The translations under genes were made by a program, and so were the position numbers. Shown here one piece after another: positions 10,113-45,153 of a stretch of DNA of 64,000 nucleotides. Position 1 is the stretch's first letter. Each line of letters begins with the position of its first letter. Source of the DNA: Pseudonocardia sp. C8 (lineage in GTDB: Bacteria; Actinomycetota; Actinomycetes; Mycobacteriales; Pseudonocardiaceae); NCBI RefSeq assembly GCF_014267175.1, contig NZ_JACMTR010000002.1, forward strand, positions 3,497,501 to 3,561,500. Direction: 5' to 3'. The notes below the pieces were generated by a model, which was not told where the DNA came from, made no database searches, and was given only the letters and a program-made list of their open reading frames with translations.

Positions 10113-11141
10113 GTGGACGACAACGCTCACCATCTCCTCTCGGAGGAGGATTTCGCGCTCGCCCACGCCCTCCAGGTCCACCCGCGGGCGAGCTGGAGCG
10201 GGCTGGCGCCGGTCCTCGGCAGCTCGGCGGTCACGCTGGCCCGCCGCTGGCAGCGGCTGCGGGACTCCGGGCTGGCCTGGGTCACCAGCTACCCGGCGGT
10301 CCAGGAGGGCGGGATGCAGGTCGCCCTCGTGGAGATCGACTGCGCACCCGGCCGGCTCGACGAGGTCGCCGTCGCGCTGGAGACCGAACCCCAGGTCATG
10401 ACCATCGAGTACGCCGCCCGCGGGCGCGACCTGTTGCTGACGGTGAGCGCGCCGACGTTCACCGGGCTGTCCGGGCTGGTGCTCGACCGGATCGGCCGGG
10501 TGCCGGGCGTGGCGTCGACCCGCACCCACCTCACGGCGGCCGTGCACATCGAGGGCAGCCAGTGGCGGCTCGACGCTCTCGACGCCGGTCAGATCGACGC
10601 GGTCCGGGCACTGCTCCGGGCCGACCTCGGCACCCGGGCCGCGCCGGTGGACCTGCGCGGGCCGGTGTACGGGCCGATCGTGCGCGAGCTCGGCGCCGAC
10701 GGGCGGGCCGGCGCGGCCGCGATCGCGGCCCGGCTCGGGCGCCCCGCCTCGACGGTGCGTCGGCAGCTCGCGACCCTGCTCCGCTCCCGGTCGCTGGTCT
10801 TCCGCTGCGAGGTCGCGCAGCTGCTGACCCGGTGGCCGATCTGCGTGACGTGGTGGATGCGGCTGCCCACGGCGGACGTCGGCGATGCCGTGCGGCGGAT
10901 CCGCACCGACCCCCGCGTCCGGCTCTGCCTGTCGCTCACCGGCCCGGAGAACTTCCTGGTCACGGCCTGGACGCATTCGCTGACCGAGCTCGTCGGCATG
11001 CAGTCGGCGCTCGAGCGGGCCGCGCCGGCGGCCGAGATCGTCGACACCTCGGTGATCCTGCGGATCCGCAAGCGGATGGGCTGGCTGCTGCACCCCGACG
11101 GCCGGTGCACCGGCCGGTCCGTGCCGCTCATCCCGGAGTGA
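10113..11141 (+). CDS. Lrp/AsnC family regulator with two tandem Lrp-like modules
   Basis: About 342 residues, roughly twice the length of a single Lrp. The N-terminal HTH (LSEEDFALAHALQVHPRASW, then VLGSSAVTLARRWQRL) is followed by an AsnC-type RAM segment. A second HTH (GRAGAAAIAARLGRPASTVR) near residue 195 is followed by a second RAM-like region, giving a covalent pseudo-dimer. I chose GTG 10113 because homology starts directly after it; a TTG 12 bp upstream is possible. It is divergent from the M20/MFS operon, whose promoter it most likely controls in response to an amino acid. Its 3' end overlaps the convergent FAD oxidase gene by 14 bp. Confidence 0.85.
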   Translation: MDDNAHHLLSEEDFALAHALQVHPRASWSGLAPVLGSSAVTLARRWQRLRDSGLAWVTSYPAVQEGGMQVALVEIDCAPGRLDEVAVALETEPQVMTIEYAARGRDLLLTVSAPTFTGLSGLVLDRIGRVPGVASTRTHLTAAVHIEGSQWRLDALDAGQIDAVRALLRADLGTRAAPVDLRGPVYGPIVRELGADGRAGAAAIAARLGRPASTVRRQLATLLRSRSLVFRCEVAQLLTRWPICVTWWMRLPTADVGDAVRRIRTDPRVRLCLSLTGPENFLVTAWTHSLTELVGMQSALERAAPAAEIVDTSVILRIRKRMGWLLHPDGRCTGRSVPLIPE

Positions 11142-12246
11142 GCTGCCCCGCGAGGGCGTCGCTCCCGGCGAACGCCGGGCCGGGCCCGCGGCCGGTGCGG
11201 ACGACGCCGGCGACGACCTCCCCCACCGCGGGGGCGTAGCTGAACCCCTGACCGGAGAAGCCGCCCACCGTCACGACGCGGGGCCCGGCCCCGGCGAGCG
11301 CGACGATCCCGCGCCGGTCCGCCGTGTACGCCTCCACGTAGGACTCGACCCGCACCGGGCACTCCCCCAGCCCCGGGATCCGCGCTGCCACGGCGGCCGC
11401 CCAGGCCCGGGCGTAACCGGGCTCGACGTCGGGGTGGGCCTCGCGGGGGTCCGGCACGCGGGGCTGCGACCGCTGATAGTTGATCTTCACTGTCGTCCCG
11501 TCGACCGTCGGGAAGGCGCTGAACACCGGGCCGCCGGTGTGCACGCCGGGCGGGAAGCACCCGGGCCGGAACCGTTCCGGCGCCTCTACCGGGAACCAGC
11601 TGAGCACCACCCGCCGCGGGACGATCCCCTGCGGCCGGCCCGGCAGCAGCGGGGTGTGGCGACCGGTGGCGAGGACGGCCGCGTCGGCGACCGTCTCCCC
11701 GTCCACGGTCCGCAGCACCACCCGGCCGCGGCGGTGACCGATCCCGAGCACGGTGACGTCCTCACGCACGACCGCACCCGCCCGGCAGGCCTCGTCGACG
11801 AGCGCCCGGGTGGCCCGGGGCGCGTCGAGCAGGCCGCCCCGCGGGTCGAACACGGCCAGGTCACCGGGGGCGAGCCGGTGTCCCGGCCAGCGTTCGGCTG
11901 CCGCGGCGGACCCGAGCACCTCGGTCCGTCCGGCGAACACGGTGCCGCGGACCCGCGGGTCGGTCGCCGGACCCGCGGTGAGCGCGCCGCACGGGACGAG
12001 CGCGCCGCCGGCGACCCCCGCCCAGAGCTCGCGGCTGCGGTCGAGCAGGCGGTGGTGCTCCGGGCGACCGGCCACCGCGGTGCGCACGATCCGGGTCTCG
12101 CCACCGCCGGAGGCGCCGTCGGCGTGCCCGACCCGGCCGGCGTCGAGCCCGACGCAGTCGACGCCGGCCCGGGCGAGCGCCAGCAACGCGGCCCCGCCGA
12201 GCACCCCGAGCCCGACGACCGCGCACCGGACCGGAGCGGGCGTCAC
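11128..12246 (-). CDS. FAD-dependent amine oxidase, SolA/sarcosine oxidase-like (DAO family)
   Basis: A 372-residue flavoprotein. An N-terminal Rossmann motif VVGLGVLGGAAL (about 9-20) is followed by GASGGGETRIVRTA, the equivalent of the GxxHGxTRIxR segment in N-methyl-amino-acid oxidases, and by a C-terminal VTVGGFSGQGFSYAPAVGE that closes the FAD site. The cysteine that links FAD covalently in monomeric sarcosine oxidase is not evident in the aligned region (ESYVEAYTAD). Family members oxidise secondary amines to imines, releasing H2O2. The GTG start overlaps the stop of the Wzz-like gene, so it is the last gene of the five-gene operon. I infer that it could perform the oxidative C-N cleavage done elsewhere by SbnB. 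Confidence 0.82.
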   Translation of the reverse strand: MTPAPVRCAVVGLGVLGGAALLALARAGVDCVGLDAGRVGHADGASGGGETRIVRTAVAGRPEHHRLLDRSRELWAGVAGGALVPCGALTAGPATDPRVRGTVFAGRTEVLGSAAAAERWPGHRLAPGDLAVFDPRGGLLDAPRATRALVDEACRAGAVVREDVTVLGIGHRRGRVVLRTVDGETVADAAVLATGRHTPLLPGRPQGIVPRRVVLSWFPVEAPERFRPGCFPPGVHTGGPVFSAFPTVDGTTVKINYQRSQPRVPDPREAHPDVEPGYARAWAAAVAARIPGLGECPVRVESYVEAYTADRRGIVALAGAGPRVVTVGGFSGQGFSYAPAVGEVVAGVVRTGRGPGPAFAGSDALAGQLTPG

Positions 12247-14009
12247 GGTGTGGCCGACCGTGTCCGCGCGTCGGGCGGGAGCGGGACCCGGGCCGGGTCC
12301 CGTGGCAGCCGGCCGGCCCACACCAGGCACAGCACCGGCGGCGCCCCGACCGCACGCAGGGCCTCGGCGGCGACCGTGACGTCGGCGAGGCGGGTGCCCG
12401 CGGTGTGCACCGCCAGCACGGTCGGCCCGGTGTCGCGCAACGCCCGGAGGTCCTCGTGCTCGACCGGGCGGGTCCGCAACGCGCGGATCGCCGGGGTGCC
12501 GTCGGCCACCGTCACGGGCGGGGCCCCCGGGGTGAGGTCCGCGTACGCCCGCCGGTCACCCACCAGCGTGGCCGCCTTGACCAGCTCGGACCCGACGTCG
12601 CAGGCCGGTTCCGGGGTGAGCTGCACGACGGTGACGACCGGGAGGCCGCGTAGCCGGACCCGGTAGGCGGCGGCCAGCCGGGGAACCGCGTCCGGTGCCG
12701 GACCGGGGGCGAGCACCGGCACGTCCAGCGCCTCGCGCAGCGCGCCCGCCGGGTCGGCCTCCGGCACCAGGCCGCGCGCCCGGCGGACGGCCGGGACGCC
12801 GGCCGCCACGAGGACGGGGACGGCGAGGCCGCCCAGGACCGCGGCGACCGCGACCCACACCGCCGCCGGGACCTCCGGTGCCGCCACCGGTTCCGGACCG
12901 GCGACGACGACGGTGGCCTGCCCGGCACGCTCCGCCAGCACCCGGCCGAGCTGGTCGGCCAGCGGATCGGGTGCCGGCGACGCTCCAATGCCGTTCCCCG
13001 AGTCGGCCCGGGCCGCCGCCAGGCGGTCCAGCTCGGCACGCAGCGGTCCGGTGCCCGCCCCGGTGACCGCCGCGTCGAGGGCGCCGATCCGTTCGCGGAG
13101 CGCGGTGACGGCGTGCTCGGCGACGACCGCGGCGTCGGGCCCGGTCACGCGGACGTCGAGCACGCCGGGGACCGGGGAGGTGACCGACAGCCGGGATCCG
13201 ATCCCGGCTGCGGTCGTGCCGGACAGGGCCGCGACCCGATCGGTGAAGGCTGCCGTCGCGGCCGCGCCGAGGGCCCGGGCGGTGGCGGGAGCGGGGTCGA
13301 GCGTGCCGACCGACCCGACCTGCACCGAGGTGGTCGCGACGGTCGGCGGCGGGAACAGCACGGCCAGGGCGGCCGCCGCGCCCGCGGCCACCAGGGCGAG
13401 CAGGGTGACCCCGCGACGCCGGCGGGCGAGCGCCGCGCTCGCCTGGCGCAGCGGCCCGTTGCGTGGGGGCGCAGGCACGGTGGCCCATCCCCCGGGCACC
13501 GGTCCGGGACCGGTCCGGGCGGGGGCCCGTCCGCCGGACGTCGGTGCCGCATCCGGACCGGGCCGGCCGCCGGGCCGCGGCCCGGGCGGGGGTCCCGGCG
13601 GCCGGGGCATCCCGTTCCGGTGCACCGGCCCGGCGGTCCCGGGCACGCCGTTGCGGCCGGGTTCGGCGCGGGGCGGTGCGGTGGTGCCGGGGTGGTTCCC
13701 GTTCCGGGCCGGCGCGGGGTCGTTCCGGGGCGGTGCGGGAGCCCCTGTGGGAGAACCGTTCCGGGCCGGCGCGGGGTCGGCCCGCGGCGGCGCGGCCGCC
13801 CCCGGGGGAGTGCCGTTCCGCGCCGGCGCGGCGTGGGAGTCGGCGCTCGACGACCGCACCGCGGGCGGGGACGGCAGCGCACCGGAGGGCAGCGCCGCCT
13901 CCGGCGAGCCGGGACCGGCGTCCACGGCGCCGGACTCCCCGGGCGGCACCGGGTCCGGCCCGGTCCCCGGCCGCGACGGGACGAGCGGGGCCCGGATCGT
14001 GCGCCCCAT
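12243..14009 (-). CDS. Wzz-like two-TM protein with proline-rich N terminus and degenerate nucleotide-binding tail
   Basis: A 588-residue protein that I do not recognise as a named family. Residues 1-190 are Pro/Ala/Gly/Arg-rich and contain an imperfect repeat built on APARNG...PP. A basic stretch ARRRRG leads into TM1 (about 199-218), a roughly 165-residue extracytoplasmic segment, TM2 (about 383-405), and a C-terminal cytoplasmic domain. The topology matches polysaccharide co-polymerases (Wzz/CapA). The C-terminal domain resembles BY-kinase folds, but the Walker A position reads QLTPEPACDVGSELVK and lacks GKS/T, so nucleotide hydrolysis is unlikely. Start and stop both overlap neighbours, so it belongs to the operon. 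I infer a scaffold or chain-length role for the product of the Pls-like protein. Confidence 0.6.
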   Translation of the reverse strand: MGRTIRAPLVPSRPGTGPDPVPPGESGAVDAGPGSPEAALPSGALPSPPAVRSSSADSHAAPARNGTPPGAAAPPRADPAPARNGSPTGAPAPPRNDPAPARNGNHPGTTAPPRAEPGRNGVPGTAGPVHRNGMPRPPGPPPGPRPGGRPGPDAAPTSGGRAPARTGPGPVPGGWATVPAPPRNGPLRQASAALARRRRGVTLLALVAAGAAAALAVLFPPPTVATTSVQVGSVGTLDPAPATARALGAAATAAFTDRVAALSGTTAAGIGSRLSVTSPVPGVLDVRVTGPDAAVVAEHAVTALRERIGALDAAVTGAGTGPLRAELDRLAAARADSGNGIGASPAPDPLADQLGRVLAERAGQATVVVAGPEPVAAPEVPAAVWVAVAAVLGGLAVPVLVAAGVPAVRRARGLVPEADPAGALREALDVPVLAPGPAPDAVPRLAAAYRVRLRGLPVVTVVQLTPEPACDVGSELVKAATLVGDRRAYADLTPGAPPVTVADGTPAIRALRTRPVEHEDLRALRDTGPTVLAVHTAGTRLADVTVAAEALRAVGAPPVLCLVWAGRLPRDPARVPLPPDARTRSATP

Positions 14010-15052
14010 CAGAGGCTCCGCGCCGGGAGCGGCCCGTCGGACCCGGGCACCGCGGTCCCGAGGTGCGGCAGCGGAGCCGCCCCGCGGGGCACGGGCACCG
14101 CTTCGGCGACCGCGTCGCCGAAGTGCTCCCGCAGCCAGGACGGCCGGTACACCGTGTCGAGGTAGCGCTCGCCCAGGTCGGGGGCCAGCGCGACGGCCGT
14201 GGTGTCGGCGTCGCCGTGCCGGGCCAGCCAGGCCAGCGCCCCCGCGACGACGGTGCCGGTAGAACCTCCGAAGAGGAACCCGCGGCGCGCCAGCCGGTGA
14301 CAGGTGTCCAGCGTGTCCGGTTCGGCGACGTGCACGACGTCGTCCACGTAGGACTCGTCGAGCAGCGGGGGCCGGACGCTCGTGCCCAGTCCCGGGATCA
14401 TCCGCGGCGTCGGCCGGTCACCGAAGGTGACCGATCCCGCGGAGTCGACGGCCACCACCCGCACCCGCCGCGGCCGGCTCCGGAAGTAGCGGGCGCAGCC
14501 CATGAGCGTCCCGGTCGTCCCGGCCCCGACGAACAGCACGTCGAGCTCGGGGAACGCGGACTCGATCTCCGGCCCGGTGCTGGCCACGTGCGAGCCCCAG
14601 TTCTCCGGGTTGGCGTACTGGTCGAGCCACACGTAGCGGTCGTCGGCCTCGACCAGCGCCCGGACCAGCGCGATCCGGGTGGCGAGGTAACCGCCGGCCG
14701 CGTCCGGGACGTCGACCACCCGGACCTCGGCACCGAGCGCCTCCATCAGCCGGTGCGTGGTGGGGTTGCACCGGGGGTCGGTGACGCACACGAACCGGTA
14801 GCCGCGGCTCGCCGCGATCATGGCCAGGGCGACACCCAGGTTCCCGGACGACGACTCGATCAGCACCGACCACGGGTGCAGCCGTCCGGCGCGCTCGGCC
14901 TCGGCGACCATGCCGAGCGCCGCCTTGAGCTTGACCGAGCCGGCGAAGTTGAAGCCCTCGCACTTGAGGTAGAGCGACCGGCCGACGGACGGGGCCAGGT
15001 CGACGTACAGGTCGTCGGTGTTGAACTGCTCGGGGGTGGAGATGACGGTCAT
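14009..15052 (-). CDS. SbnA-like synthase, 2,3-diaminopropionate pathway
   Basis: A 347-residue PLP enzyme of the cysteine synthase fold. The PLP lysine is in GFNFAGSVKLKAAL (about 34-47); the SVKLK form, rather than SVKDR, together with ESSSGNLGVALAMIAA, CVTDPRCNP, WLDQYANPENW and FVGAGTTGTLMGCARYF, is diagnostic of SbnA-type proteins rather than ordinary cysteine synthases. SbnA condenses O-phospho-L-serine with L-glutamate to N-(1-amino-1-carboxy-2-ethyl)-glutamate, the precursor of L-2,3-diaminopropionate. Usually SbnB, an ornithine cyclodeaminase-like dehydrogenase, follows; none is present here, and a FAD amine oxidase takes that place in the operon. Its start overlaps the dioxygenase stop (ATGA), and its stop overlaps the Wzz-like start (TGATG). 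Confidence 0.85.
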   Translation of the reverse strand: MTVISTPEQFNTDDLYVDLAPSVGRSLYLKCEGFNFAGSVKLKAALGMVAEAERAGRLHPWSVLIESSSGNLGVALAMIAASRGYRFVCVTDPRCNPTTHRLMEALGAEVRVVDVPDAAGGYLATRIALVRALVEADDRYVWLDQYANPENWGSHVASTGPEIESAFPELDVLFVGAGTTGTLMGCARYFRSRPRRVRVVAVDSAGSVTFGDRPTPRMIPGLGTSVRPPLLDESYVDDVVHVAEPDTLDTCHRLARRGFLFGGSTGTVVAGALAWLARHGDADTTAVALAPDLGERYLDTVYRPSWLREHFGDAVAEAVPVPRGAAPLPHLGTAVPGSDGPLPARSL

Positions 15053-16026
15053 CGTGGCCCTCCGGGCGCCGGCACGGCCACGCCGTCGGTCATCGCGACC
15101 ACGACCTGCCGGTCGCCGGTGTAGGGATCGCGGCCGTGCGCGACCCGCAGGTTGTCGACGACGAGCAGGTCGCCGTCCTGCCACGGCTCCCGCACGGCGT
15201 GCCGGTCGTGCGCGGCGTTGATCTCGTCGACGACGTGCTCCGGCACCGGCGCGCCGTCGCCGAACCGGGTGCTGAACGGCAGCCCGTCCGGCCCGTGCAG
15301 CTCGAGCAGGAACTCGCGGACCTCCGGGTCCATCGCGTACTCGGAGAGGAACGCGATCTGGTTGAACCAGACCCGCTCCCCCGTGCCCGGGTGGACGAGC
15401 ACGCCGTGCCGGTGCTGCCGGGTGCGTAGCCCGCCGTCGTCGAGCCACTCGGTCGCGATCGCGTTCGCCCGGCAGTACGACTCCACCTCGGAGCGGTCGG
15501 TGGTGCCGAAGGCCTGCTCCCAGGGTGCGCCGATCTCGTCGGAGTAGGCGCGGGTCAGGATCCAGCCGTCGCGCTCGACCCGCTCCACCAGGTCGGCCGG
15601 CAGGTCCGCGACGACCCGGGCGGTGTCCACCAGCGGCGTCGCGCCGCCGGTGGCCGGGGCACGCAGGCAGGCGAACAGCAGCGTCGCGGGCGTCTCGAGC
15701 ACGTAGGACAGCTCGTGGTGGGCACACATCGGCTGCCGGGCCGGCCACGGCGTGGCCGAGTGGACGCCGTCGGCGAGCAGGGTCCGGGTGGCGAACGCCT
15801 CGCGCTCGACGTGGCTGCCGCTCCCGAGCCGGGCCGCGACCCCGGAGACGTCGGCGACGGTGCGCAGGCCGAGACCGCGCACCACGACGGCGCCGTGCTC
15901 GTCGACGAGCTCGCTCAGCGCGTCGCCGTACCGCTCGCACCAGCCGGTCGCGTCGCCGGCCGGCCCGGCGTCGAGCACCGGTGGACGCCCCGGGTGCAGC
16001 CGCACACCCAGCAATGATCCGGTCAT
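15049..16026 (-). CDS. TauD/SyrP-like Fe(II)/2-oxoglutarate dioxygenase
   Basis: A 325-residue non-heme iron oxygenase. The iron motif is HxE (CAHHELSYV, about residues 101-109) with a distal His in DNLRVAHGRDPY and a 2-oxoglutarate-binding Arg in GDRQVVVAM. The HxELSY form followed by ACLRAP-ATGGATPLVDTARV resembles SyrP-type and related enzymes that beta-hydroxylate amino acids on non-ribosomal peptide carrier domains, rather than TauD itself (HxD). A GGGGGAAG Shine-Dalgarno precedes the ATG, 21 bp after the carrier-domain gene. I infer hydroxylation of the amino acid tethered to that carrier, or of the free precursor; taurine catabolism is unlikely from context. Confidence 0.82.
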   Translation of the reverse strand: MTGSLLGVRLHPGRPPVLDAGPAGDATGWCERYGDALSELVDEHGAVVVRGLGLRTVADVSGVAARLGSGSHVEREAFATRTLLADGVHSATPWPARQPMCAHHELSYVLETPATLLFACLRAPATGGATPLVDTARVVADLPADLVERVERDGWILTRAYSDEIGAPWEQAFGTTDRSEVESYCRANAIATEWLDDGGLRTRQHRHGVLVHPGTGERVWFNQIAFLSEYAMDPEVREFLLELHGPDGLPFSTRFGDGAPVPEHVVDEINAAHDRHAVREPWQDGDLLVVDNLRVAHGRDPYTGDRQVVVAMTDGVAVPAPGGPR

Positions 16027-16047
16027 GGTTCTTCCCCCTGGTAGTGA

Positions 16048-18543
16048 TCAGGTCGCGGGCCGGCGAACGGGGCCGGCGGGGTTGCCCTCCCAGAACGCGC
16101 CGTCCGGCACCTCCTCGCCCTTCATCAGGAAGGCGTCACAGCCGATCCGGGCGTCCTCGCCGACGACGGATCCGTAGTGGACGAAGGCGGCGACGTCGAG
16201 GCAGGCACCGGAGGACACGGTGATGCCGGCCGACTTGAACGTGCCGTCCTCCTGCGAGTGGCACTGGATGGTGGTCCCGGCGTTGAGGACGACGTCGTCG
16301 CCGACGGTGACCAGGGTGCGGTCGGTCATGGCGGCGCCGTCGTCGAACACGCGGCGGCCGATCCGGACACCCAATGCCCGGGACACGACGTTCTTGAACG
16401 GCGTGCCCGCGAACATCTTGTCCCACCCCTGCACCACGAGCTTCCAGTAGCGCTCGTGCCACCAGAAGTACGGGTCGTAGACCGAGCAGAACCGCGCCCG
16501 CAGCGGGCGCCGGAACGTGGCGAGCCGTTCGATCGCGACCGTGTAGGTCATGGTGAACAGCAGCGCCGCGAGCATGACGACGCCGACGGCGAACACCCCC
16601 AGCGGCACCAGGACGTCGGCCAGGACCAGCGTCAGCAGGGTGCTCCCGAACAGCCCGCCCCAGCGGACCAGCAGGGCCAGCCCGATGGTTCGCCGGTTGT
16701 AGCGGTTCTTGCCGCGCAGCCGCCGGTGCAGGTCCAGCCCGGTCTCGAGGTGGGCGAAGGTGCCGTCGCGGGCCACCGTCCGCGGGATCTCGAACGGGGG
16801 CGAGCCGAGCAGGCCGACACCGCTGCGGACCGGGCCGTCGGTGGGCACGAGCGTCTTGGTGGCGAACAGGCAGTCGTCACCGACCCGCGACGCCGCCGGG
16901 TAGGCGATCCGGTTGCCGAGGAAGCAGTTCGACCCGATCCGCGTCCGGCTGACCACGAAAGCGGTGTCCGAATAATCCGCATTCATGATCGAGAGACCGT
17001 CGGCGACCATGGTTCCGGTTCCGATCGAACTCGCGAAGGGCGTCTCGTGTTTCAGCGCGGTGCCGAAGTTCGTCCCGGTCTGGGGAACGAGCCGGAGATC
17101 GTATCCGATCATCCGCAGGTACCCGACGATGTAGGAACTGTCGCCGAGCAGGTACGTGAAGAATTTGATGTTCGTCATCCGGATGATCGTGCGGTGCAGC
17201 GTGTACCGGATCCCGTACAACCGGTCGACCCGCCCCTCCTCCACGCCGAGCGCCAGCAGCCGGGCCACGACGGTCACGGTGAACAGTCCGGTCACGATCC
17301 CGGCGAGGAGCAGCAGCCCGGTGACGCCGAGGACCTCCAGGACGAACAGCGGCGACCCGAACGGGGCCGAGGCGGGAGAGAGGACGAACTGCAGGACCGG
17401 GACGTGCGAGAGCAGGACGTTCGCCACCCCGGCACCGAGGGGCAGCCAGACCAGCAGCAGGGTCAGCAGCTGGGCCGCGGCGTACCCGGCCCGGCGCAGC
17501 CACCCGCTCGGGGCCGCCACCGGCCCGCCCGGGTCGCCGCCGCCGCGCCGCCCGGGGGTGCCCCACCAGGTCTCCCCCGGCGGGATCCGCTGCCCGGTGT
17601 GCAGCGACGACGAGTGCGCGAGCCGGCCGCCGTCCCCGATCTCCGTGCCGATGTCGATCACGGCGACCTCGCCGACCACGACGTCGGCACCGAGGGTGAC
17701 CCGCCCGGTCCGGATCAGGCCCGGCTCGGCGCGGTAGCAGGTGAGCACCGAGTCCTTCCGCAGCACGGTCCGCGCGCCCACCGTGAGCAGGTCCGGGCAG
17801 GCGGGGATCACACGCGCGAGCATCACCACCCCGGGCCCGATCCGGGCGCCGAGCAGGCGCAGGTACAACGGCAGCAGCGGGGAGCCCGCCGCCACCAGGA
17901 GCAGAGGGTTGGTCCGCACCAGCACCTTGGCCAGCCAGAACCGGTAGTAGCGGAACCCCCACAGCGGGATCTCCTGCTCGGTCCACCGCCCGACCAGCAC
18001 CCACTTCGCGACGATCGGCAGCACGGTGAACACCGCGAACGCGATCGACACCGCGAGCAGCGCGCGCAGGTAGAAGTCGACGAGCCCGGATGCCCGGGCG
18101 ATCCACAGGTAGGCGGTGCCGAGCACGCTGCTGTAGGCGAGGGTGAAGGCCACGAACGTCACGAGCTGGGCGGCACCGCACAGGACGTAGGCCGTGGTCG
18201 ACGCGCGCGGCCTCGGCCCCCGCTCCGCGGCCGGCTCCGGTACCGCGGCGGCACCGGGCCCGGCGGGCGCCAGCGCCGCGGCGAGACCGGCCGCGGTCGG
18301 ATGGGCGTAGACGTCGGTCATCGACACCGGCGGCAGGTCGGGGCGCTTCCGGACGCGGGCGCAGAACCGCGCCAGGACCATCGAATCGGCACCCGTGTCG
18401 GTGAAGAAATGATCGTCCGGCGCGACCGGGGCACCGGCGAGCTCGCCGAGGATCGCGCAGAATTCGTCCTCGATGGACGGTTCGGCGATCACCGCGGAAT
18501 GCGACACGGACACGTCACCCCCGGCGCCAGAAGACAGCGTCAT
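16048..18543 (-). CDS. Pls/PosA-like membrane protein: carrier domain plus three left-handed-helix domains and six TM, no adenylation domain
   Basis: An 831-residue protein. Residues about 17-85 form a thiolation domain, with the phosphopantetheine serine in TDTGADSMVLARF. It continues with paired TM segments (about 105-165, 340-425 and 620-670) that enclose three hexapeptide-repeat domains (about 210-310, 490-580 and 725-825), for example ITVSSGACLDVAAFVHYGS. This is the terminal architecture of epsilon-poly-L-lysine synthetase (Pls) and its relatives, but the adenylation domain that normally precedes the carrier is missing. ATG 18543 was chosen after a GGGGG stretch; ATG 18576 and a downstream GTG are alternatives. 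It heads a five-gene coupled operon. Around 16920-17170 the codons are clearly less GC-rich than the neighbourhood. Confidence 0.82.
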   Translation of the reverse strand: MTLSSGAGGDVSVSHSAVIAEPSIEDEFCAILGELAGAPVAPDDHFFTDTGADSMVLARFCARVRKRPDLPPVSMTDVYAHPTAAGLAAALAPAGPGAAAVPEPAAERGPRPRASTTAYVLCGAAQLVTFVAFTLAYSSVLGTAYLWIARASGLVDFYLRALLAVSIAFAVFTVLPIVAKWVLVGRWTEQEIPLWGFRYYRFWLAKVLVRTNPLLLVAAGSPLLPLYLRLLGARIGPGVVMLARVIPACPDLLTVGARTVLRKDSVLTCYRAEPGLIRTGRVTLGADVVVGEVAVIDIGTEIGDGGRLAHSSSLHTGQRIPPGETWWGTPGRRGGGDPGGPVAAPSGWLRRAGYAAAQLLTLLLVWLPLGAGVANVLLSHVPVLQFVLSPASAPFGSPLFVLEVLGVTGLLLLAGIVTGLFTVTVVARLLALGVEEGRVDRLYGIRYTLHRTIIRMTNIKFFTYLLGDSSYIVGYLRMIGYDLRLVPQTGTNFGTALKHETPFASSIGTGTMVADGLSIMNADYSDTAFVVSRTRIGSNCFLGNRIAYPAASRVGDDCLFATKTLVPTDGPVRSGVGLLGSPPFEIPRTVARDGTFAHLETGLDLHRRLRGKNRYNRRTIGLALLVRWGGLFGSTLLTLVLADVLVPLGVFAVGVVMLAALLFTMTYTVAIERLATFRRPLRARFCSVYDPYFWWHERYWKLVVQGWDKMFAGTPFKNVVSRALGVRIGRRVFDDGAAMTDRTLVTVGDDVVLNAGTTIQCHSQEDGTFKSAGITVSSGACLDVAAFVHYGSVVGEDARIGCDAFLMKGEEVPDGAFWEGNPAGPVRRPAT

Positions 18544-18872
18544 CGCTGCCCCCGAATGGACGAGCTTCTGCGGCATGACATCGTGGCGCTTTTGCAGGCG
18601 TTACGGCAACCGGAATCCGTCCACCCGTTCGGCGCAACGGAAACGTCGAGAATTTCACCACGACCGGCGCAGCATTCGACCCGCGGCGATCGCCATGCCG
18701 CGGAACCGGGCCGCTGCGGGCCGGGCAACGCTCGCACGCCGGCCCACCCGGACCGGCCGATTGTGGCACAGACCACACAGGAACGGCACCGACCACCCGT
18801 CCGGGGCGGCGCCACCGGCCCGGACCGGCCACACCGGACCGCATCATGGACGCACCCGTCGAGGAGGAGACC
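18544..18872. other. Divergent intergenic region between the Pls-like operon and phoD
   Basis: About 330 bp without a supported gene. The part next to the Pls-like gene is less GC-rich than average (CGAGAATTTCACC near 18648) and probably contains that operon's promoter. I could not pick a convincing -35/-10 pair or an operator. Confidence 0.6.
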
Positions 18873-20333
18873 GTGCCCGGACCGTCGAGGCGCATCGTGC
18901 TCGCCGGAGCGCTCGGATCGGCCCTCAACGGGCTGCTGCCTCCGGAGCCGGCCCGTGCCGCGGGCACCGCGGCTCCCCGGCGTCCGGCGTTCGCCGCCCC
19001 GTTCACGCTCGGCGTCGCCTCCGGGGACCCGGCGCCCGACGGTGTCGTGCTGTGGACCCGGCTCGCCCCGCGGCCGGACGCCGAGGACGGTCGCGGCGGG
19101 ATGCCGGACCGCCCGGTCGACGTCGAGTGGGAGGTCGCCGAGGACGAGGCGTTCACCCGGGTCGTCCGGCGCGGCACCGAGACCGCGGTCCCCGGGTTCG
19201 CGCACAGCGTGCACGCCGAACCGGCCGGGCTCGCCCCCGGCCGCGAGTACTTCTACCGCTTCCGCGCCGAGGGGCACCTCTCCCCCGCCGCACGCACCCG
19301 GACCGCACCGGCGGCCGGGGCGGCGGTACCCGCGCTGACGGTGGCGGCGGCGTCCTGCGCGAAGTTCGGCGCCGGGTACTTCACGGCCTACCGCGCGCTG
19401 GCGGCCGACCACCCCGACCTGGTCCTGCACCTGGGCGACTACTTCTACGAGTCCGACGACGGCGACGTCCGCGACCCCGGCGGCCCGGAGCCGGTGGACC
19501 TGGCCGGGTACCGCCGCCGGCACGCCCACCAGCGCTCGGACGCCGACCTGCGGGCCGCGCACGCCGTCGCGCCGTGGCTGGTCGTCTGGGACGACCACGA
19601 GCTGGCGAACAACTGGGCGGGCGGCGACCGTGCCCGCGCACCGCAGCGGCGCCGGGCCGCGTTCCAGGCGTACTACGAGCACATGCCGCTGCGCCGGGCC
19701 TCGGTGCCGCGCGGGATCGACCTGCAGCTCTTCCGGCGGGTGCCGTGGGGGTCGCTGGCGACGTTCCACATGCTCGACACCCGCCAGTACCGGACACCGC
19801 GCGGCCGCGGCGGCTCCATCACCGGTCCGGAGCAGGAACGCTGGCTGCTGGAGGGTTTCCGCAGCTCGACGGCCGGCTGGGACGTGCTCGGCCAGCAGGT
19901 GTTCTTCGCCCCCCGCGGGGGTGGCGGGCACAAGAACGACACGTGGGCGAGCTACCCGGGCTCGCGGGAACGGATCACCCGCGGCTGGGTGGAGGCCGGG
20001 GTCCGCAACGCGGTCGTGCTCACCGGGGACGAGCACGTCCACCACGCCAACGAGATCCCCCTCGGCGACGACGGCCGGACCGTGGGCACCGAGCTCGTCA
20101 CCACCTCGATCACCTCCGGTGGCGACGGCGAGGGCGGCGCCGGCGACGGCGGGCGCGAGAACCCGCACAGCCGCTACCGGGAGGACCGGCGCGGCTACCT
20201 CCTCACCCGGTTCACCCCCACCGAGCTGCGCGCCGACTTCCGGACGGTCGAGCAGGTGCGCCGCCCGGGCGCCCCCGTGCGGACCTCGGCCTCGTTCGTC
20301 GTGCCGGACCGGGGGGCGCTGTCGCGCCCGTGA
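18873..20333 (+). CDS. phoD: PhoD family alkaline phosphatase, Tat-exported
   Basis: A 486-residue secreted metallophosphoesterase hydrolysing phosphomono- or diesters. A twin-arginine signal (SRRIVLAGALGSAL) opens the protein. Metal-site motifs follow in the family order: AAASCAKFGAGYFTAY, HLGDYFYES, VWDDHELANNW, and LTGDEHVHHANE near residue 380. GTG 18873 is preferred over the ATG 27 bp earlier because a GGAGGA Shine-Dalgarno is 4 nt upstream and the resulting n-region is short, as Tat signals require. It is transcribed away from the Pls-like operon, and its stop codon lies inside a long palindrome. Confidence 0.9.
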   Translation: MPGPSRRIVLAGALGSALNGLLPPEPARAAGTAAPRRPAFAAPFTLGVASGDPAPDGVVLWTRLAPRPDAEDGRGGMPDRPVDVEWEVAEDEAFTRVVRRGTETAVPGFAHSVHAEPAGLAPGREYFYRFRAEGHLSPAARTRTAPAAGAAVPALTVAAASCAKFGAGYFTAYRALAADHPDLVLHLGDYFYESDDGDVRDPGGPEPVDLAGYRRRHAHQRSDADLRAAHAVAPWLVVWDDHELANNWAGGDRARAPQRRRAAFQAYYEHMPLRRASVPRGIDLQLFRRVPWGSLATFHMLDTRQYRTPRGRGGSITGPEQERWLLEGFRSSTAGWDVLGQQVFFAPRGGGGHKNDTWASYPGSRERITRGWVEAGVRNAVVLTGDEHVHHANEIPLGDDGRTVGTELVTTSITSGGDGEGGAGDGGRENPHSRYREDRRGYLLTRFTPTELRADFRTVEQVRRPGAPVRTSASFVVPDRGALSRP

Positions 20334-22906: not shown

Positions 22907-23722
22907 TCAGCGCACCTGCTTCGCGAACACGACGACGTTGTCGCGGTAGCTGTCCGCGCCGCGGTCGAACGTGCCGCCGCAGGTGATCAGGCGCAGCCCG
23001 GCGTGGTCGAGGTCGCCGTACACCTCGGCGGTCGGGAAGGCCGCCTTCGGGTACTGGTCGACGCGGGTCACCGCGAAGACCACCGACGACCCGTCGGCGC
23101 GGTCGACCCGGATCTCGTCACCCGACTGCAGGGAGTCCAGCTCGGCGAACGCTCCGGGTAGGCCCTTCCAGTCGACGTGCGCGGCCAGGACGGCGGGACC
23201 GAGCTCGCCCGGGGTGGGGGCGCCGGTGAACCAGCCGACGGTGCCGGCGTCGTCGGGGACCTGCATGGCGCCGTCCGGGTGCAGGCCGAGCGGGACGGGC
23301 GTGGTGTCGAGGCCGAGCCGGGCCACCCGGAGCCGCACCGGCTCCGAGCGGACCAGCGGTACCGGCCCGGCCGGGAGCAGCCCCGCACCGGTCGACGCGC
23401 GCCCCGGGCCGGGCCCCTCCCCGATCGCCCCGGTGCCGGCCGGAGCCGCGTCGGACCGCACCGGCCCGGCGTCGGCCCCCGTCCCGGCATCGGTCGGTAG
23501 TCGTGTGCCGCCGGCGGCCGCGGCGCCGGCGGCGTCGGGGTGGTGGGCAGGCTCGGGTGCGCGGGCGGGGTCGGCGGCCGCGAGGACCGCGACCGCGACC
23601 AGCACCGGGGCCGCGATCCGCACGGCGAGCCGGCCGGTGCCCCGACGGCACGACCGCCGACCGCCCGTCGCAGGCCGGAGCCGGTCGCCGGGCGGCTCGG
23701 GACGCGCCGGCGTCCCGCCCAC
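22907..23722 (-). CDS. Class F-like sortase
   Basis: A 271-residue membrane-anchored transpeptidase. An N-terminal TM (about 34-50, VRIAAPVLVAVAVLAAAD) is followed by a 60-residue Ala/Gly/Pro linker and the sortase domain. Catalytic His is in VLAAHVDWKG, Cys in LRLITCGGTFD and Arg in DSYRDNVVVF. The short family form, PVPLGLHPDGAMQVPDDAGTV split by turns, and the WFTGAPTPGE segment match actinobacterial class F sortases. The start is GTG 23722 with a GGGAGGG Shine-Dalgarno. The nearest possible partner is the Excalibur-domain protein 95 bp upstream on the same strand, but that protein has no LPxTG motif. Confidence 0.87.
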   Translation of the reverse strand: MGGTPARPEPPGDRLRPATGGRRSCRRGTGRLAVRIAAPVLVAVAVLAAADPARAPEPAHHPDAAGAAAAGGTRLPTDAGTGADAGPVRSDAAPAGTGAIGEGPGPGRASTGAGLLPAGPVPLVRSEPVRLRVARLGLDTTPVPLGLHPDGAMQVPDDAGTVGWFTGAPTPGELGPAVLAAHVDWKGLPGAFAELDSLQSGDEIRVDRADGSSVVFAVTRVDQYPKAAFPTAEVYGDLDHAGLRLITCGGTFDRGADSYRDNVVVFAKQVR

Positions 23723-23817
23723 GGCGGCATCCCTCCCGGCGCCGGCCGGCACCGTGCGCACGCCACCGACCTCGGCCGGGGGCACGCGAGCCCCCCGCTC
23801 CACGACCGGCCCGGCTC

Positions 23818-24192
23818 TCAGCCCCGGCGGGCGGCCACCGCGCGGCGCGCCGCGACCGCCCCGACCCCGCCGGCGGCCAGCGCTCCGAGCGCGACCGGCA
23901 GGACGTCGGCGGGCCCGCCGCCCGCCTCGACGCCGCCGACCGGGGTGGCCGTGACCTGGCTGCTCTCGTCCGAGGTGGCCGCCGCCGGGGCGTAGGCGTG
24001 GTCCTCGCAGGCCTGGCCGTCGTTGTCCCGGTCGAGCCGCTCGGGGTCGCCCGGGAGCAGCGCCGCCTGGGCGTCGGCCTGGGACGCGAAGTCCGGGCAG
24101 TCGCGGTCCTGGGCGTACGCCGCTCCGGCCAGCGGGACGGCGGCCGCCACCGCGAGCAGGGCGGCGGCGGAGAAGGTGCGCAGGCGCATCAT
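23818..24192 (-). CDS. Excalibur calcium-binding domain protein, secreted and tail-anchored
   Basis: 124 residues: signal peptide (MMRLRTFSAAALLAVAAAVP, cleavage near AYA-QD), one Excalibur domain (DCPDFASQADAQAALLPGDP, then DRDNDGQACE, with the DxDxDGxxCE calcium loop and two Cys), a spacer rich in Ala/Ser/Gly, and a C-terminal hydrophobic segment ending in ARRAVAARRG. The hydrophobic-plus-basic tail is like a sortase substrate tail, but no LPxTG/LAxTG precedes it; GGGPADVLPVALG is the closest. It is probably cotranscribed with the class F-like sortase, so it may be a surface protein handled by it (inference). Confidence 0.8.
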   Translation of the reverse strand: MMRLRTFSAAALLAVAAAVPLAGAAYAQDRDCPDFASQADAQAALLPGDPERLDRDNDGQACEDHAYAPAAATSDESSQVTATPVGGVEAGGGPADVLPVALGALAAGGVGAVAARRAVAARRG

Positions 24193-24347
24193 GTCGGGGG
24201 AATCCTTCCGGGAAAGCGGACTGAGGTGGTGGGAGCCGGGGAGCCTCGCCCGGTAGAGCGACCCGGACGTGGCGGTCGTTACACACCGTCGCCGAACGGC
24301 GTCGGAACGCGGTTGAACGGATCGGCCGGACCGCCGAAGCTGCCCCG

Positions 24348-25337
24348 GTGACCTCCGCACCGGACGACCTCCCCACCCCCGACGACGTGCCGGCCGCCGC
24401 GGCGATCCTGCGCGGCGTCGCCCACCGCACCCCGGTGCTGACCTCGCGGCTGACCGACGCGGAGGTCGGCGCGTCGGTCCTGATCAAGGCCGAGAACTTG
24501 CAGCGCACCGGCAGCTTCAAGTTCCGCGGCGCGTTCCATACGCTGTCCCGGCTCGGCCCGGAGCAGCGCCGCGCGGGCGTCGTCGCGTTCTCGTCCGGCA
24601 ACCACGCCCAGGCCGTCGCGCTGGCCGCACAGCTGCTGGAGATCCCGGCGACGATCGTCATGCCGACCGACGCGCCGGCGTCCAAGCTGGCCGCGACCCG
24701 CGGGTACGGCGCCGAGGTCGTCCCCTACGACCGCTTCGCCGAGGACCGGGCCGCGATCGCCGCCGACCTCGCCCGGCGGCGCGGGCTCACCCTCGTCCCG
24801 CCCTACGACCACCCGCACGTGATCGCCGGGCAGGGCACCGCCGTGTTCGAGCTGCTCGAGGACCACGGCCCGCTGGACGCGCTGTTCGTCTGCCTCGGCG
24901 GCGGCGGGCTGCTGTCCGGGTCGCTGCTCGCCACGCAGGCGCTCTCTCCCGGCACGGCCGTGTTCGGGGTCGAGCCCGAGGCCGGCGACGACGGCCGGCA
25001 GTCCCTGCGTGCAGGCCGGATCGTGACCATCGACCAGCCCCGCACCCTCGCCGACGGTGCGGCGACCACCCACCTGGGCACGCGCACGTTCCCGATCATT
25101 GCCAAGCACGTCGAGAACATCCTCACCGTCCCCGACGACGCGCTGGTGGAGGGGATGGCGCTGTTCGCGTCCCGGTACAAGGTGCTGGTGGAGCCGACCG
25201 GCGCGCTGGCGTTCGCCGGGATGCGGGCGGCCGTCGCCGCGGACCCGGGGCGGTTCGCCGGTGCCCGCATCGGTGTGACGATCTCCGGCGGCAACGTCGA
25301 CCTCGACCGCTTCGCGGGCCTGGTCAGCACGGCGTGA
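24348..25337 (+). CDS. Threonine dehydratase/hydroxyaspartate ammonia-lyase-like PLP enzyme
   Basis: A 329-residue fold-type II PLP enzyme. The PLP lysine is in LQRTGSFKFRGAF (about 47-59), the substrate loop is SSGNHAQAVALAA and the phosphate-binding loop is CLGGGGLLSG. There is no C-terminal ACT domain, so it is the short catabolic or serine racemase/threo-3-hydroxyaspartate ammonia-lyase type rather than biosynthetic IlvA. The product would be a 2-oxo acid plus ammonia. The GTG start lies 6 nt after GAAGCT, a possible weak leaderless -10. It is a single gene, divergent from the Excalibur/sortase pair. Substrate choice among Thr, Ser and hydroxyaspartate is not resolvable by eye. Confidence 0.87.
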   Translation: MTSAPDDLPTPDDVPAAAAILRGVAHRTPVLTSRLTDAEVGASVLIKAENLQRTGSFKFRGAFHTLSRLGPEQRRAGVVAFSSGNHAQAVALAAQLLEIPATIVMPTDAPASKLAATRGYGAEVVPYDRFAEDRAAIAADLARRRGLTLVPPYDHPHVIAGQGTAVFELLEDHGPLDALFVCLGGGGLLSGSLLATQALSPGTAVFGVEPEAGDDGRQSLRAGRIVTIDQPRTLADGAATTHLGTRTFPIIAKHVENILTVPDDALVEGMALFASRYKVLVEPTGALAFAGMRAAVAADPGRFAGARIGVTISGGNVDLDRFAGLVSTA

Positions 25338-41311: not shown

Positions 41312-41740
41312 ATGGAGCTGACCGTCGAACGTGACGTGCACGCCGGGACCGACCGGCTGTGGGCGGTGCTCGCCGACCCCGTGGACTGGCCGCGCTGGAC
41401 CCGGTCCGTCCGGGAGATCCGGCTGCTGGACGGGGACCTGGCGCCCGGCAGCCGGGCGTGGATCGTCCAACCGGGACTGCGGCCGATGGTGTGGACCGTG
41501 ACCGAGCTCGTCCCGGGACGGGAGCTCACCTGGACCGCGTCGGCGGCCGGGGTGGTCACGACCGGCCGGCACTCGGTGCGGCCCGGGCCGGGCGGGACCA
41601 GCCGGCTGCGGCTCGGCCTCGAGCAGCGGGGCGTGCTCGCGCCGGTCGTGCAGGCGCTGTTCGGACGCCGCAGCCGGCGCTACGTCGAGCTCGAGGCCGA
41701 CGGGCTCCGGCGGGCGGCCGAGGCGGACCACCCCGGCTGA
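41312..41740 (+). CDS. SRPBCC (START/Bet v1-like) family protein
   Basis: 142 residues of the polyketide cyclase/dehydrase-like helix-grip fold: VHAGTDRLWAVLADPVDWPR at the start, PGSRAWIVQPGLRPMVWTVT and GRELTWTASAAGVVTTGRHS strands, and a C-terminal helix (RRSRRYVELEADGLRRAAE). These bind small hydrophobic ligands. GGAGGG precedes the ATG. It is directly controlled by the paired operator. The ligand may relate to the divergent TetR/cupin pair. Confidence 0.82.
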   Translation: MELTVERDVHAGTDRLWAVLADPVDWPRWTRSVREIRLLDGDLAPGSRAWIVQPGLRPMVWTVTELVPGRELTWTASAAGVVTTGRHSVRPGPGGTSRLRLGLEQRGVLAPVVQALFGRRSRRYVELEADGLRRAAEADHPG

Positions 41741-41771
41741 CCCGTCGACGGTTGCTGTCGGGGGTCGCCGA

Positions 41772-41777
41772 TAGCGT
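41772..41777 (+). promoter_or_regulatory. -10 box TAGCGT, leaderless spacing to recC
   Basis: TAGCGT ends 7 nt before the recC GTG at 41785; there is no Shine-Dalgarno. It is the only promoter-like signal for the recCBD operon in this gap. Confidence 0.5.
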
Positions 41778-41784
41778 GCGGGGC

Positions 41785-44700: not shown

Positions 44701-45153
44701 CGGCTCCGGGCGTGGGTGCAGCTGCTGGCGCTGGCCGCCGCGCACCCGGACCGGTCGTGGACGGCCGTGACGATCGGCCGGGGCACCGGCGGTGCGGCCC
44801 GCTCCACCCTCGGCCCGGTGGACCCCGCGCGGGCCCGGGCCGTGCTCGCCGACCTGGTCGCGCTGCGCCGCGACGGGCTGCGCGCGCCGCTGCCGCTGCC
44901 GACCGACGCGGCCGCCGTCTACGCCCGCAACCGCGCCCGCGGCGTGACCCCGGCGAACGCGCTGGCCGCGGCCGACGCCGAGTGGTCGAAGTTCGAACGC
45001 ACCGACGCGGCGCACGTCTTCGTCCGCGGGCCGGGTGCCCCGCTGCTGCCGCGCGACGAGCCGGGTGCGGGGGCCGAGCCGACCCGGTTCGGCGCGCTCG
45101 CCACCCGGCTGTGGGCGCCGCTGCTCGACCACGAGAGGCAGGACGCACCGTGA
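41785..45153 (+). CDS. recC: Exodeoxyribonuclease V subunit gamma (RecC)
   Basis: A 1122-residue RecC, normal length. The protein opens with the conserved LHRAERADTLVDALAGVLAA and contains EVVAVPERGVERWLAQRLSH, the RecC signature VVLHSCHGPDRQVEVLREAL, PRDIVVMCPDIEVFAPLI, and LVPMRAVPHRVVCLLGCDDG. RecC holds the RecBCD complex together, splits the duplex and scans for Chi. It is the first gene of recC-recB-recD, with a GTGA overlap into recB. Broken-end repair and degradation of linear foreign DNA are the complex's known roles. Confidence 0.95.
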   Translation: MLELHRAERADTLVDALAGVLAAGAADPFTPEVVAVPERGVERWLAQRLSHRLGAGSGSGGVCANVVFPAPAALLGEIVDTVTGADPETDPWAPGRAVWPLLELIDEAARSGDDRFAGLAAHLERGGHGRRYALARSLAGLFGTYATHRPALLRNWRRGADEVSPDLAWQPELWRRLRARLGVPGPAERLDAAVAALRDGASPGDGVPERLSLFGPTRLAAEHLGVLEAVSVHRDVHLWLPHPSPVMWDAVRRSRPAAPPTRASDGSAGQVRNPLLRSLGRDVRELALRLPATGPGVTDTHHRAPGPGGPPTLLRRLQEALRDDVPPPAPGDRPLLDPADRSVVLHSCHGPDRQVEVLREALLGLLAADETLEPRDIVVMCPDIEVFAPLITASFGLAPDPSAPGAAAGPSRDELHPGHLLRVRLADRALRQANPLLGTVSSLLELAGSRLTASQVLDLIASGPVRRRFRLDDDALERLTELVTAAGVRWGLDAGHRAPYKLDGVGQNTWRAGLDRLLVGVAMAETPGAPAWLGTALPLDEVDSSDVDLVGRLAEIVDRLGTVLGALRGPQPLARWVAALGEGLAALTDTPASEAWQATQARAELADVLHTAGPQAETVDLDLPDVRGLLAERLRGRPSRANFRTGTLTVATLVPMRAVPHRVVCLLGCDDGVFPRAGAPDGDDVLARDPVVGERDPRGEDRQLLLDAICSATEHLVVVSSGADERTGAERPPSVPIGELCDAIDACVRTGSGARASDVLRARHPLQPHDRRNFLAGALLADGPFSFDRAALQGAEAAGGPRSAVPLFPADPLPEPDDEDTVELDELIAFVEHPVRAFLRQRVRVLPPGENEEPDDALPVELDGLATWKIGDRLLADRLAGAPPQAVARAETLRGDLPPGGIGRRVLTDVGGRVEPLVALAAAARTGEAASQDLVAPLTGTALDGITVAGTVPGLHGDVVVRVEYSRLKAKHRLRAWVQLLALAAAHPDRSWTAVTIGRGTGGAARSTLGPVDPARARAVLADLVALRRDGLRAPLPLPTDAAAVYARNRARGVTPANALAAADAEWSKFERTDAAHVFVRGPGAPLLPRDEPGAGAEPTRFGALATRLWAPLLDHERQDAP

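Follow-up and report, generated by a model that had tools for sequence, protein, structure and literature searches.

A 64,000-nucleotide stretch of Pseudonocardia sp. C8 (genome G000, contig 2 (C2), positions 3,497,501-3,561,500; hereafter the window) carries a five-gene operon that appears, from comparison with related loci, to be the reduced form of a seven-gene operon. We propose that it represents a satellite of a conserved pathway, found mainly in actinobacteria, for an isopeptide chain based on L-2,3-diaminopropionate (Dap), and that it is charged in trans by a second gene cluster of the same genome; we put the probability of this reading at roughly 0.6. The five genes lie on the minus strand at window positions 11128-18543, as read from the sequence, and all five frames are open. 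The close coupling described in an earlier reading of the window's letters (the original prediction) was confirmed, with a 21-bp gap between the Pls-like and dioxygenase genes, an ATGA overlap between the dioxygenase and SbnA genes, a TGATG junction between the SbnA and Wzz-like genes, and a GTGA overlap through which the gene of a flavin adenine dinucleotide (FAD) oxidase is translationally coupled to the operon. In the order of transcription the genes are:

16048-18543, minus strand: Pls-like gene of the Pls/PosA family, lacking an adenylation (A) domain; ATG start, 831 amino acids (aa)
15049-16026, minus strand: TauD/SyrP-like Fe(II)/2-oxoglutarate dioxygenase gene; 325 aa; PF02668, E=6.4e-42
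14009-15052, minus strand: SbnA-type pyridoxal phosphate (PLP) enzyme gene; 347 aa; TIGR03945 over cut-off
12243-14009, minus strand: Wzz-like (Wzc-fold) membrane protein gene; 588 aa; predicted from a structural model and Foldseek
11128-12246, minus strand: SolA/monomeric-sarcosine-oxidase-like FAD oxidase gene; GTG start, 372 aa; PF01266, E=1e-28

Orthologous loci and gene losses in Pseudonocardia

A search of the genus with SbnA found many sites bearing a copy that was 59% identical or more, and 40 neighbourhoods were read, SbnA and SbnB being told apart by family search and separate tblastn queries. A dioxygenase of the window type occurs at eight loci, namely the window and seven others with 80-84% identity. 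The loci L037, L038, L108, L109 and L112 carry, all in the same direction, genes for Pls, a non-ribosomal peptide synthetase (NRPS), the dioxygenase, SbnB, SbnA and the Wzc-like protein, to which L037, L038 and L108 add the FAD gene. From the window and from L110 (genome G073) the NRPS and SbnB genes are both missing, and exactly these two. Order and strand of the Pls, dioxygenase, SbnA and Wzz-like genes are the same in seven of the eight loci, the exception being L111 (G079), which holds the FAD, Wzc-like, SbnA, SbnB and dioxygenase genes and an NRPS gene cut short, its Pls gene lying about 13 kb from these. This contig stretch (C44:44578-61609; L111/L122) is an orthologous operon broken up, and the locus seems to be decaying or to bear an insertion. 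The FAD gene is found in five of the eight loci. Conservation of the five genes in relatives, on which the original prediction had staked its model, is thus seen for the group as a whole, with all five together in only four of the eight (the window, L037, L038 and L108).

SbnB of L037 scores 412.0 bits and that of L038 411.6 bits (cut-off 326.9). The L038 NRPS contains AMP-binding, AMP-binding C-terminal and PP-binding domains. The pocket string common to the NRPS A domains is DIWQSTADDK (80 of 86 alike), its last two positions being taken from YGLTETSDD, whose DD occurs in 104 of 104 rows counted without de-duplication. In GrsA numbering the string resembles codes for 2,4-diaminobutyrate (Dab), for one of which a search of open-licence PMC found no paper; a Dap/Dab-like A domain is a lead only. 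With NRPS and SbnB missing, the operon alone lacks an SbnB for Dap synthesis and an A domain to activate Dap. The gene families named in the original prediction stand, while its five-gene set is corrected to a reduced form of the longer operon. Its ideas of a carrier loaded in trans and of Dap as the probable monomer gain support, the former from the A-domain NRPS that relatives hold between the Pls and dioxygenase genes.

The positions of the two deletions and of a flanking gene in the window are as follows:

16020-16054, minus strand: scar of the NRPS gene loss, from alignment with the 3' end of the L109 NRPS gene; dioxygenase ribosome-binding site retained
15040-15075, minus strand: scar of the sbnB loss; dioxygenase 3' end joined to the SbnA ribosome-binding site, with the ATGA overlap
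18846-20333, plus strand: PhoD-like phosphatase gene, flanking and outside the system, marking the orthologous site; PF09423, E=3.5e-86

The window Pls reading frame stops in the former NRPS stop region, the end of the dioxygenase gene runs into the SbnA ribosome-binding site with no recognisable sbnB remnant, and both deletions leave ribosome-binding sites and tight gene spacing. At L110, a 77-bp dioxygenase-SbnA spacer aligns with the sbnB 3' end of L112, and the Pls and dioxygenase genes share an ATGA overlap. The phosphatase gene adjoins the operon in the window, L037, L038, L108, L109 and L110; none was seen at L111 or L112. A tree of three concatenated proteins joins L110 to L112 (support 95/95) and the window to L037, L038, L108 and L109 (83/92), and a constraint forcing the window and L110 into one clade costs 45.7 log-likelihood units and is rejected (p-AU, approximately unbiased test, 0.0058). 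In the dioxygenase tree L110 again groups with L112 (95/89), in the SbnA tree the placement of these two is not resolved, and none of the single-gene trees joins the window to L110. These are gene trees of the locus, and transfer between strains is possible. Because the scars differ and the common clade is rejected, the same double gene loss appears to have occurred twice independently, in the window lineage and in G073.

The ratio of non-synonymous to synonymous substitution rates (dN/dS) between the window and L037 or L038 is 0.25-0.26 for SbnA, 0.22-0.26 for the dioxygenase, 0.35-0.36 for Pls, 0.37-0.42 for the Wzc-like protein and 0.41 for the FAD oxidase, as against 0.16, 0.19, 0.21, 0.24 and 0.29, respectively, between L037 and L038; since these are Nei-Gojobori estimates from pairwise alignments at very high GC content of third codon positions, with the Wzz-like protein and Pls covered over their aligned parts only, the values are used relatively only. 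They indicate that purifying selection continues to act on the window genes, if somewhat less strongly than on the intact pair.

The second cluster and the distribution of the gene set

G000 holds a second, complete cluster (C2:6,053,056-6,064,276; L036/L113) with its own dioxygenase, Pls and SbnA. Here, and outside the window operon, lie the sole SbnB of the genome over the cut-off (417.5 bits; C2:6,053,080-6,054,057) and the sole NRPS passing the limit. In G073, too, the single SbnB and the single NRPS lie in a complete cluster, L116. Beyond the genus, Kibdelosporangium philippinense repeats the SbnB pattern, as its locus L138 is complete and L168, in the same genome, lacks this gene. We favour charging in trans because the only SbnB and NRPS of G000 and G073 sit in complete clusters and because of this repeated pattern. 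Elsewhere in G000, an SbnA-like gene (42%) is paired with a weak SbnB-like gene (C2:1,635,274 / 1,644,608; L115), the SbnB relative at 1,644,608 scoring 223.5 bits.

Across 62 Pseudonocardia genomes including G000, with a strict E-value limit set for each gene, we counted 68 SbnA copies in 39 genomes, 46 SbnB copies in 39, 64 dioxygenase copies in 42, 48 NRPS copies in 37, and at least 126 Pls copies in 50, the last a lower bound with at most 15 candidates scored per genome. When matches were joined over gaps below 8 kb, the five-gene set (Pls, NRPS, dioxygenase, SbnB and SbnA) was found at 35 places, and SbnA, dioxygenase and Pls alone at three: the window, G073 and contig C5 of G012 (L040). 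Other partial sets comprise SbnA alone (16 places), dioxygenase with Pls (7), SbnA with Pls (6) and Pls alone (60); another 18 places fall into ten other kinds, and many of the partial sets lie in fragmented drafts. SbnB accompanies SbnA in 37 of the 39 SbnA-bearing genomes, and an NRPS does so in 36 of the 39; where such a genome is assembled into 10 contigs or fewer (15 genomes), SbnB and NRPS are both always present. Where a genome has two or more SbnA copies, SbnB copies are fewer in 16 of 22 cases, G024 and G065 looking like one lineage and so not independent.

Several of these places deserve separate mention. L040 (G012 C5:148883-155191) is a third satellite, with no NRPS or SbnB at the locus and two SbnB and three NRPS genes elsewhere in the genome. 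The seven places with only dioxygenase and Pls include L117 (G073 C2:397938-401308) and others in G070, G061, G072 and G062; as G062 has neither SbnA nor SbnB at the limits used, such pairs may act on another amino acid. Pls-type matches number at least 14 in G008 and at least 10 in G015, far above their SbnA, SbnB or NRPS matches.

In a wider search, the best 80 of at least 547 dioxygenase relatives in named genomes were examined. Sixty of these 80 loci hold Pls, NRPS, dioxygenase, SbnB and SbnA, mostly in actinobacterial hosts such as Streptomyces, Kutzneria, Lentzea, Kibdelosporangium, Geodermatophilus, Blastococcus and others, with a few metagenome-assembled genome records of other phyla. 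The remaining 20 include 12 that read as ending at a contig end and eight that do not (L122, which is the broken G079 locus, and L159, L162, L168, L185, L186, L187 and L196). The original prediction had known of no described pathway with its gene set; this novelty does not hold at the level of genes, given the 60 loci, and searches of the open-licence PMC literature returned no paper describing the five-gene set or an A-less Pls that works with an NRPS on another protein. The gene set is thus already present in databases, and its A-less multi-locus form is apparently uncharacterised.

Proteins of the operon

The Pls-like protein matches the Pls terminal domain model TIGR02353 at 601.6 bits (cut-off 423.1; model positions 2-695 of 695) and a PP-binding domain at 33.8 bits (PF00550, E=4.2e-08), and has no match to the AMP-binding domain in Pfam or NCBIfam, which sets it apart from the one-protein synthetases made of A, carrier (T) and transmembrane (TM) parts and agrees with the A-less Pls protein of the original prediction. 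Its carrier domain is located at:

18271-18462, minus strand: carrier (T) domain of the Pls-like protein, residues 28-91; PF00550; GADS serine at residue 54

By motif count there are two T domains in the Pls proteins of L037, L038, L108, L109 and L110, and one in L112, as in the window protein. Motif counts of this kind, used for the A and T domains and the catalytic lysine of Pls proteins, are crude, and a strict motif often scored long Pls proteins as A-less. The predicted structure (mean pLDDT 72, pTM 0.76) comprises the carrier domain and three pairs of TM helices, between which lie three lobes of left-handed beta-helix; Foldseek gave hexapeptide acyltransferases at E about 1e-4 to 1e-3. 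A sequence search of solved structures found none for the Pls terminal domain, its two matches both being to the carrier domain. The lack of an A domain is common among the nearest relatives, an annotated AMP-binding domain being absent from 119 of 120 Pls relatives among the matches listed (120 of 946), drawn from 7996 scored candidates of 0.55-1.75 times the query length, with longer A-bearing forms outside this range. In NCBI records, proteins of this kind bear the name 'Pls/PosA family non-ribosomal peptide synthetase'. In the core cluster of G000, the Pls (L036:4851-9491) has two carrier domains and an adenylation domain that lacks the AMP-binding C-terminal part (Pfam), which suggests that this domain is degenerate, so that a separate NRPS may have to do the loading even for a Pls that retains an A domain. 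G000 also encodes a third Pls, more distant and with an A-domain motif, at C2:3,073,142-3,075,127 (L114).

For the PLP enzyme, TIGR03945 gave 385.1 bits (cut-off 349.95) and the cysteine synthase model TIGR01136 gave 211.7 bits, under its cut-off of 344.15. The closest solved chains are SbnA (5d84-5d87), then CmnB, ahead of any cysteine synthase; the motifs SVKLK and SSGNLG are present, and identity to SbnA copies adjoining SbnB is 81-88%. The SbnA identity put forward originally is borne out by the profile suggested for it, and an ordinary cysteine synthase, the outcome named there as contrary to the model, is ruled out by the two scores.

The dioxygenase (TauD, PF02668, 144.7 bits) has At3g21360 and the TauD/TfdA-like protein 9yut as its closest solved chains, and an HxE motif at 103-105 and His297 are invariant in a 12-sequence alignment, H103, E105 and H297 being presumably the iron ligands. 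Hydroxylation at C-beta of Dap, which already carries the amine, would yield an unstable carbinolamine; beta-hydroxylation of Dap by this enzyme is for that reason doubtful, and alpha-oxidation, a dehydro-residue or another substrate is possible instead of a stable beta-hydroxy-Dap.

The Wzz-like protein has no Pfam or NCBIfam match, and eight orthologues can be aligned across some 400 residues at the C-terminal end, their proline-rich starts being variable. The model (mean pLDDT 64.3) shows a proline-rich disordered N-terminus of about 185 residues, TM1 (186-218) and TM2 (382-411) with an alpha/beta extracytoplasmic part containing a 44-residue helix between them, and a C-terminal alpha/beta domain after TM2. 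This is the layout of the Wzz/Wzc co-polymerases, in which two TM helices enclose an extracytoplasmic alpha/beta part with a long helix. In Foldseek, Wzc was the top match (E=1.1e-08), followed by KpsE (E=2.1e-04), TM-scores by query length being only 0.2-0.3; the predicted fold bears out the Wzz-like assignment made before. The Walker A motif that marks the Wzc tyrosine kinase was not found by eye in residues 412-588 of the aligned Wzc-like family, and the protein therefore looks like a pseudokinase. Its gene is present in three of the best 80 dioxygenase loci, all from Pseudonocardia.

The FAD oxidase, searched from residue 2 onward, matches DAO (PF01266, 101.3 bits) and NF008425 (174.1 bits, cut-off 257). 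These matches uphold the SolA-like label, and the score under the cut-off speaks against an equivalog of SolA. Aligned to 7exs and 9u3e, it has Tyr in place of the Cys to which FAD is covalently bound in sarcosine oxidase.

Outside the system, the window contains a RecBCD-type locus at 41359-50749 (plus strand) with RecC-like (Exonuc_V_gamma and RecC_C) and RecD-like genes, and a long open frame at 22907-24685 (minus strand) with a sortase domain at its C-terminus.

Proposed pathway, alternatives and known systems

We propose the following hypothetical scheme, in which (i) SbnA and SbnB would make Dap in the full pathway; (ii) a separate NRPS with A and T domains, and in some cases a thioesterase, would activate Dap and charge the carrier domains; (iii) the dioxygenase would oxidise a carrier-bound or free intermediate; (iv) the Pls protein, with its T-TM-beta-helix layout, would form an isopeptide oligomer or polymer at the membrane; (v) the Wzc-like pseudokinase would govern length, export or surface attachment; and (vi) the FAD oxidase would serve as an optional tailoring step. 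The window lineage would have undergone a clean deletion of NRPS and sbnB, keeping the chain-forming and tailoring genes intact, and SbnB and the adenylation domain would most likely be provided by the second cluster, the sole other such cluster found in G000.

A set of observations weighs against this scheme. It offers no explanation for the keeping of SbnA while SbnB was lost, for which dosage of the committed step is our guess. The orthologous locus in G079 is broken up, and the per-gene dN/dS values of the window are 1.15-1.75 times those between L037 and L038, as expected under relaxed constraint. The constrained window and L110 grouping was chosen after inspection of the single-gene trees, and in the Pls tree L110 falls with L037, L038, L108 and L109 (81/89), unlike in the concatenated tree. 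Cases of the trans pattern are few, with both genes in the window, G073 and L040 (G012) and with SbnB only in L168; at the eight window-type loci, reduction coincides with a second cluster in 2/2 against 2/6 for the others, a result expected by chance about once in five. SbnA occurs with no SbnB match in the drafts G017 and G028 (about 600 and 1250 contigs) and with no NRPS match in G008, G018 and G034 (about 120-730 contigs), and L185 (Streptomyces pacificus) has no SbnB at the locus, where no search was made for a second copy. In Streptomyces albulus PD-1, NjxA/NjxB are reported to have yielded Dap when given serine and ornithine but not when given O-phosphoserine and glutamate (PMC4668381), so that Sbn chemistry may not carry over.

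The main rival holds that the window locus is a dying copy that makes nothing, NRPS and sbnB being merely its first losses. The raised dN/dS and the broken G079 locus fit this explanation, as do the single T domain where most orthologues have two, though L112 also has one, and the second complete cluster, which would make the window locus redundant. Against it stand the five open frames with their motifs, dN/dS well below 1, deletions that keep ribosome-binding sites and close spacing, and the independent loss of the same gene pair twice, with Pls, dioxygenase, SbnA and the Wzz-like gene kept both times; we consider it unlikely, yet the alternative to be taken most seriously.

It is improbable, in our view, that the A-less carrier/membrane protein transfers Dap, or an oxidised form of it, onto a cell-surface glycan, with assembly organised by the Wzc-like protein. 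An A domain, a carrier and a membrane transferase follow the logic of the Dlt system, and the Wzc/KpsE fold belongs to glycan export; the Pls lobes resemble hexapeptide acyltransferases, and beta-helices have been modelled for PosA too (PMC10522769). However, the characterised relatives Pls, PDAPs and PosA are described as making free homopolymers (PMC4668381, PMC10522769), and the Wzc-like gene is rare among the dioxygenase loci.

Least credible, and very improbable, is a self-sufficient new chemistry in which the FAD oxidase would stand in for SbnB by cleaving the SbnA product oxidatively, and the carrier would be charged by some unrelated adenylating enzyme: the fact that sarcosine-oxidase-like enzymes oxidise secondary amines, of which the SbnA product is one, and the translational coupling of the FAD gene agree with it, but the FAD gene lies beside SbnB in four loci (L037, L038, L108 and L111), L110 has neither gene, which together rule it out as a general explanation, G073 has no FAD homologue at E<=1e-40, and the window SbnA closely resembles SbnA copies adjoining SbnB.

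Returning to the satellite reading, we also consider a broader form of it, tentatively and at somewhat less than even odds, in which one charger would serve many synthases: the core cluster would supply SbnB, and hence Dap, and a trans-acting A-T NRPS, satellites would keep SbnA, Pls and their own tailoring or surface genes, and one precursor line would feed several Dap-based polymers or surface decorations. The window would be such a satellite, the double loss having occurred at least twice independently at this site. The operon points to a large A-less group relying on a separate NRPS, and, if charging in trans is true, one adenylating enzyme would serve several membrane synthases per genome, so that cluster-by-cluster product prediction would mislead for this class. 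The window, G073, L040 and L168 are natural experiments open to simple genetic tests.

The antiSMASH 'NAPAA' class, whose rule is built on the Pls terminal domain, provides a class label only and is silent on the separate NRPS, the dioxygenase and the satellite loci. Pls (epsilon-poly-lysine) and PosA (delta-poly-ornithine) belong to the same TIGR02353 family and share a similar predicted beta-helix/TM layout with the window protein, but, like the characterised poly-amino-acid synthetases described, they carry their own A domain. The published PosA model resembles our Pls model in layout, and the network in that paper used a length cut-off of 1100-1800 residues (PMC10522769), a range that A-less proteins, at about 850-950 aa, would miss. 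Pls-type proteins are known to polymerise diamino acids, Dap included (PMC4668381). PDAPs of Streptomyces albulus PD-1 is like the window system in combining a Pls-type membrane synthase with Dap from two enzymes, NjxA and NjxB, identified by similarity to known Dap synthetases (PMC4668381). Their accession numbers lie far apart from that of PDAPs, so they are apparently encoded away from it; NjxB (EXU92121) is two accessions from an unassigned NRPS (EXU92123) in the table of that paper, and the two may share an operon. In contrast to the window system, PDAPs is a single A-T-TM protein with its own A domain, and the window system adds a dioxygenase, a Wzc-like protein and an FAD oxidase. In the text of PMC4668381 the word 'dioxygenase' does not occur. 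A precedent for the proposed charging comes from capreomycin biosynthesis, where CmnA-A1 charges the A-less CmnI with Dap in trans (PMC12400406). As a soluble T-C module, CmnI serves an assembly line for a defined peptide and differs from the window Pls, a membrane protein, yet both are A-less carriers, and the Dap charging in trans that is known for CmnI is what we propose for the window protein.

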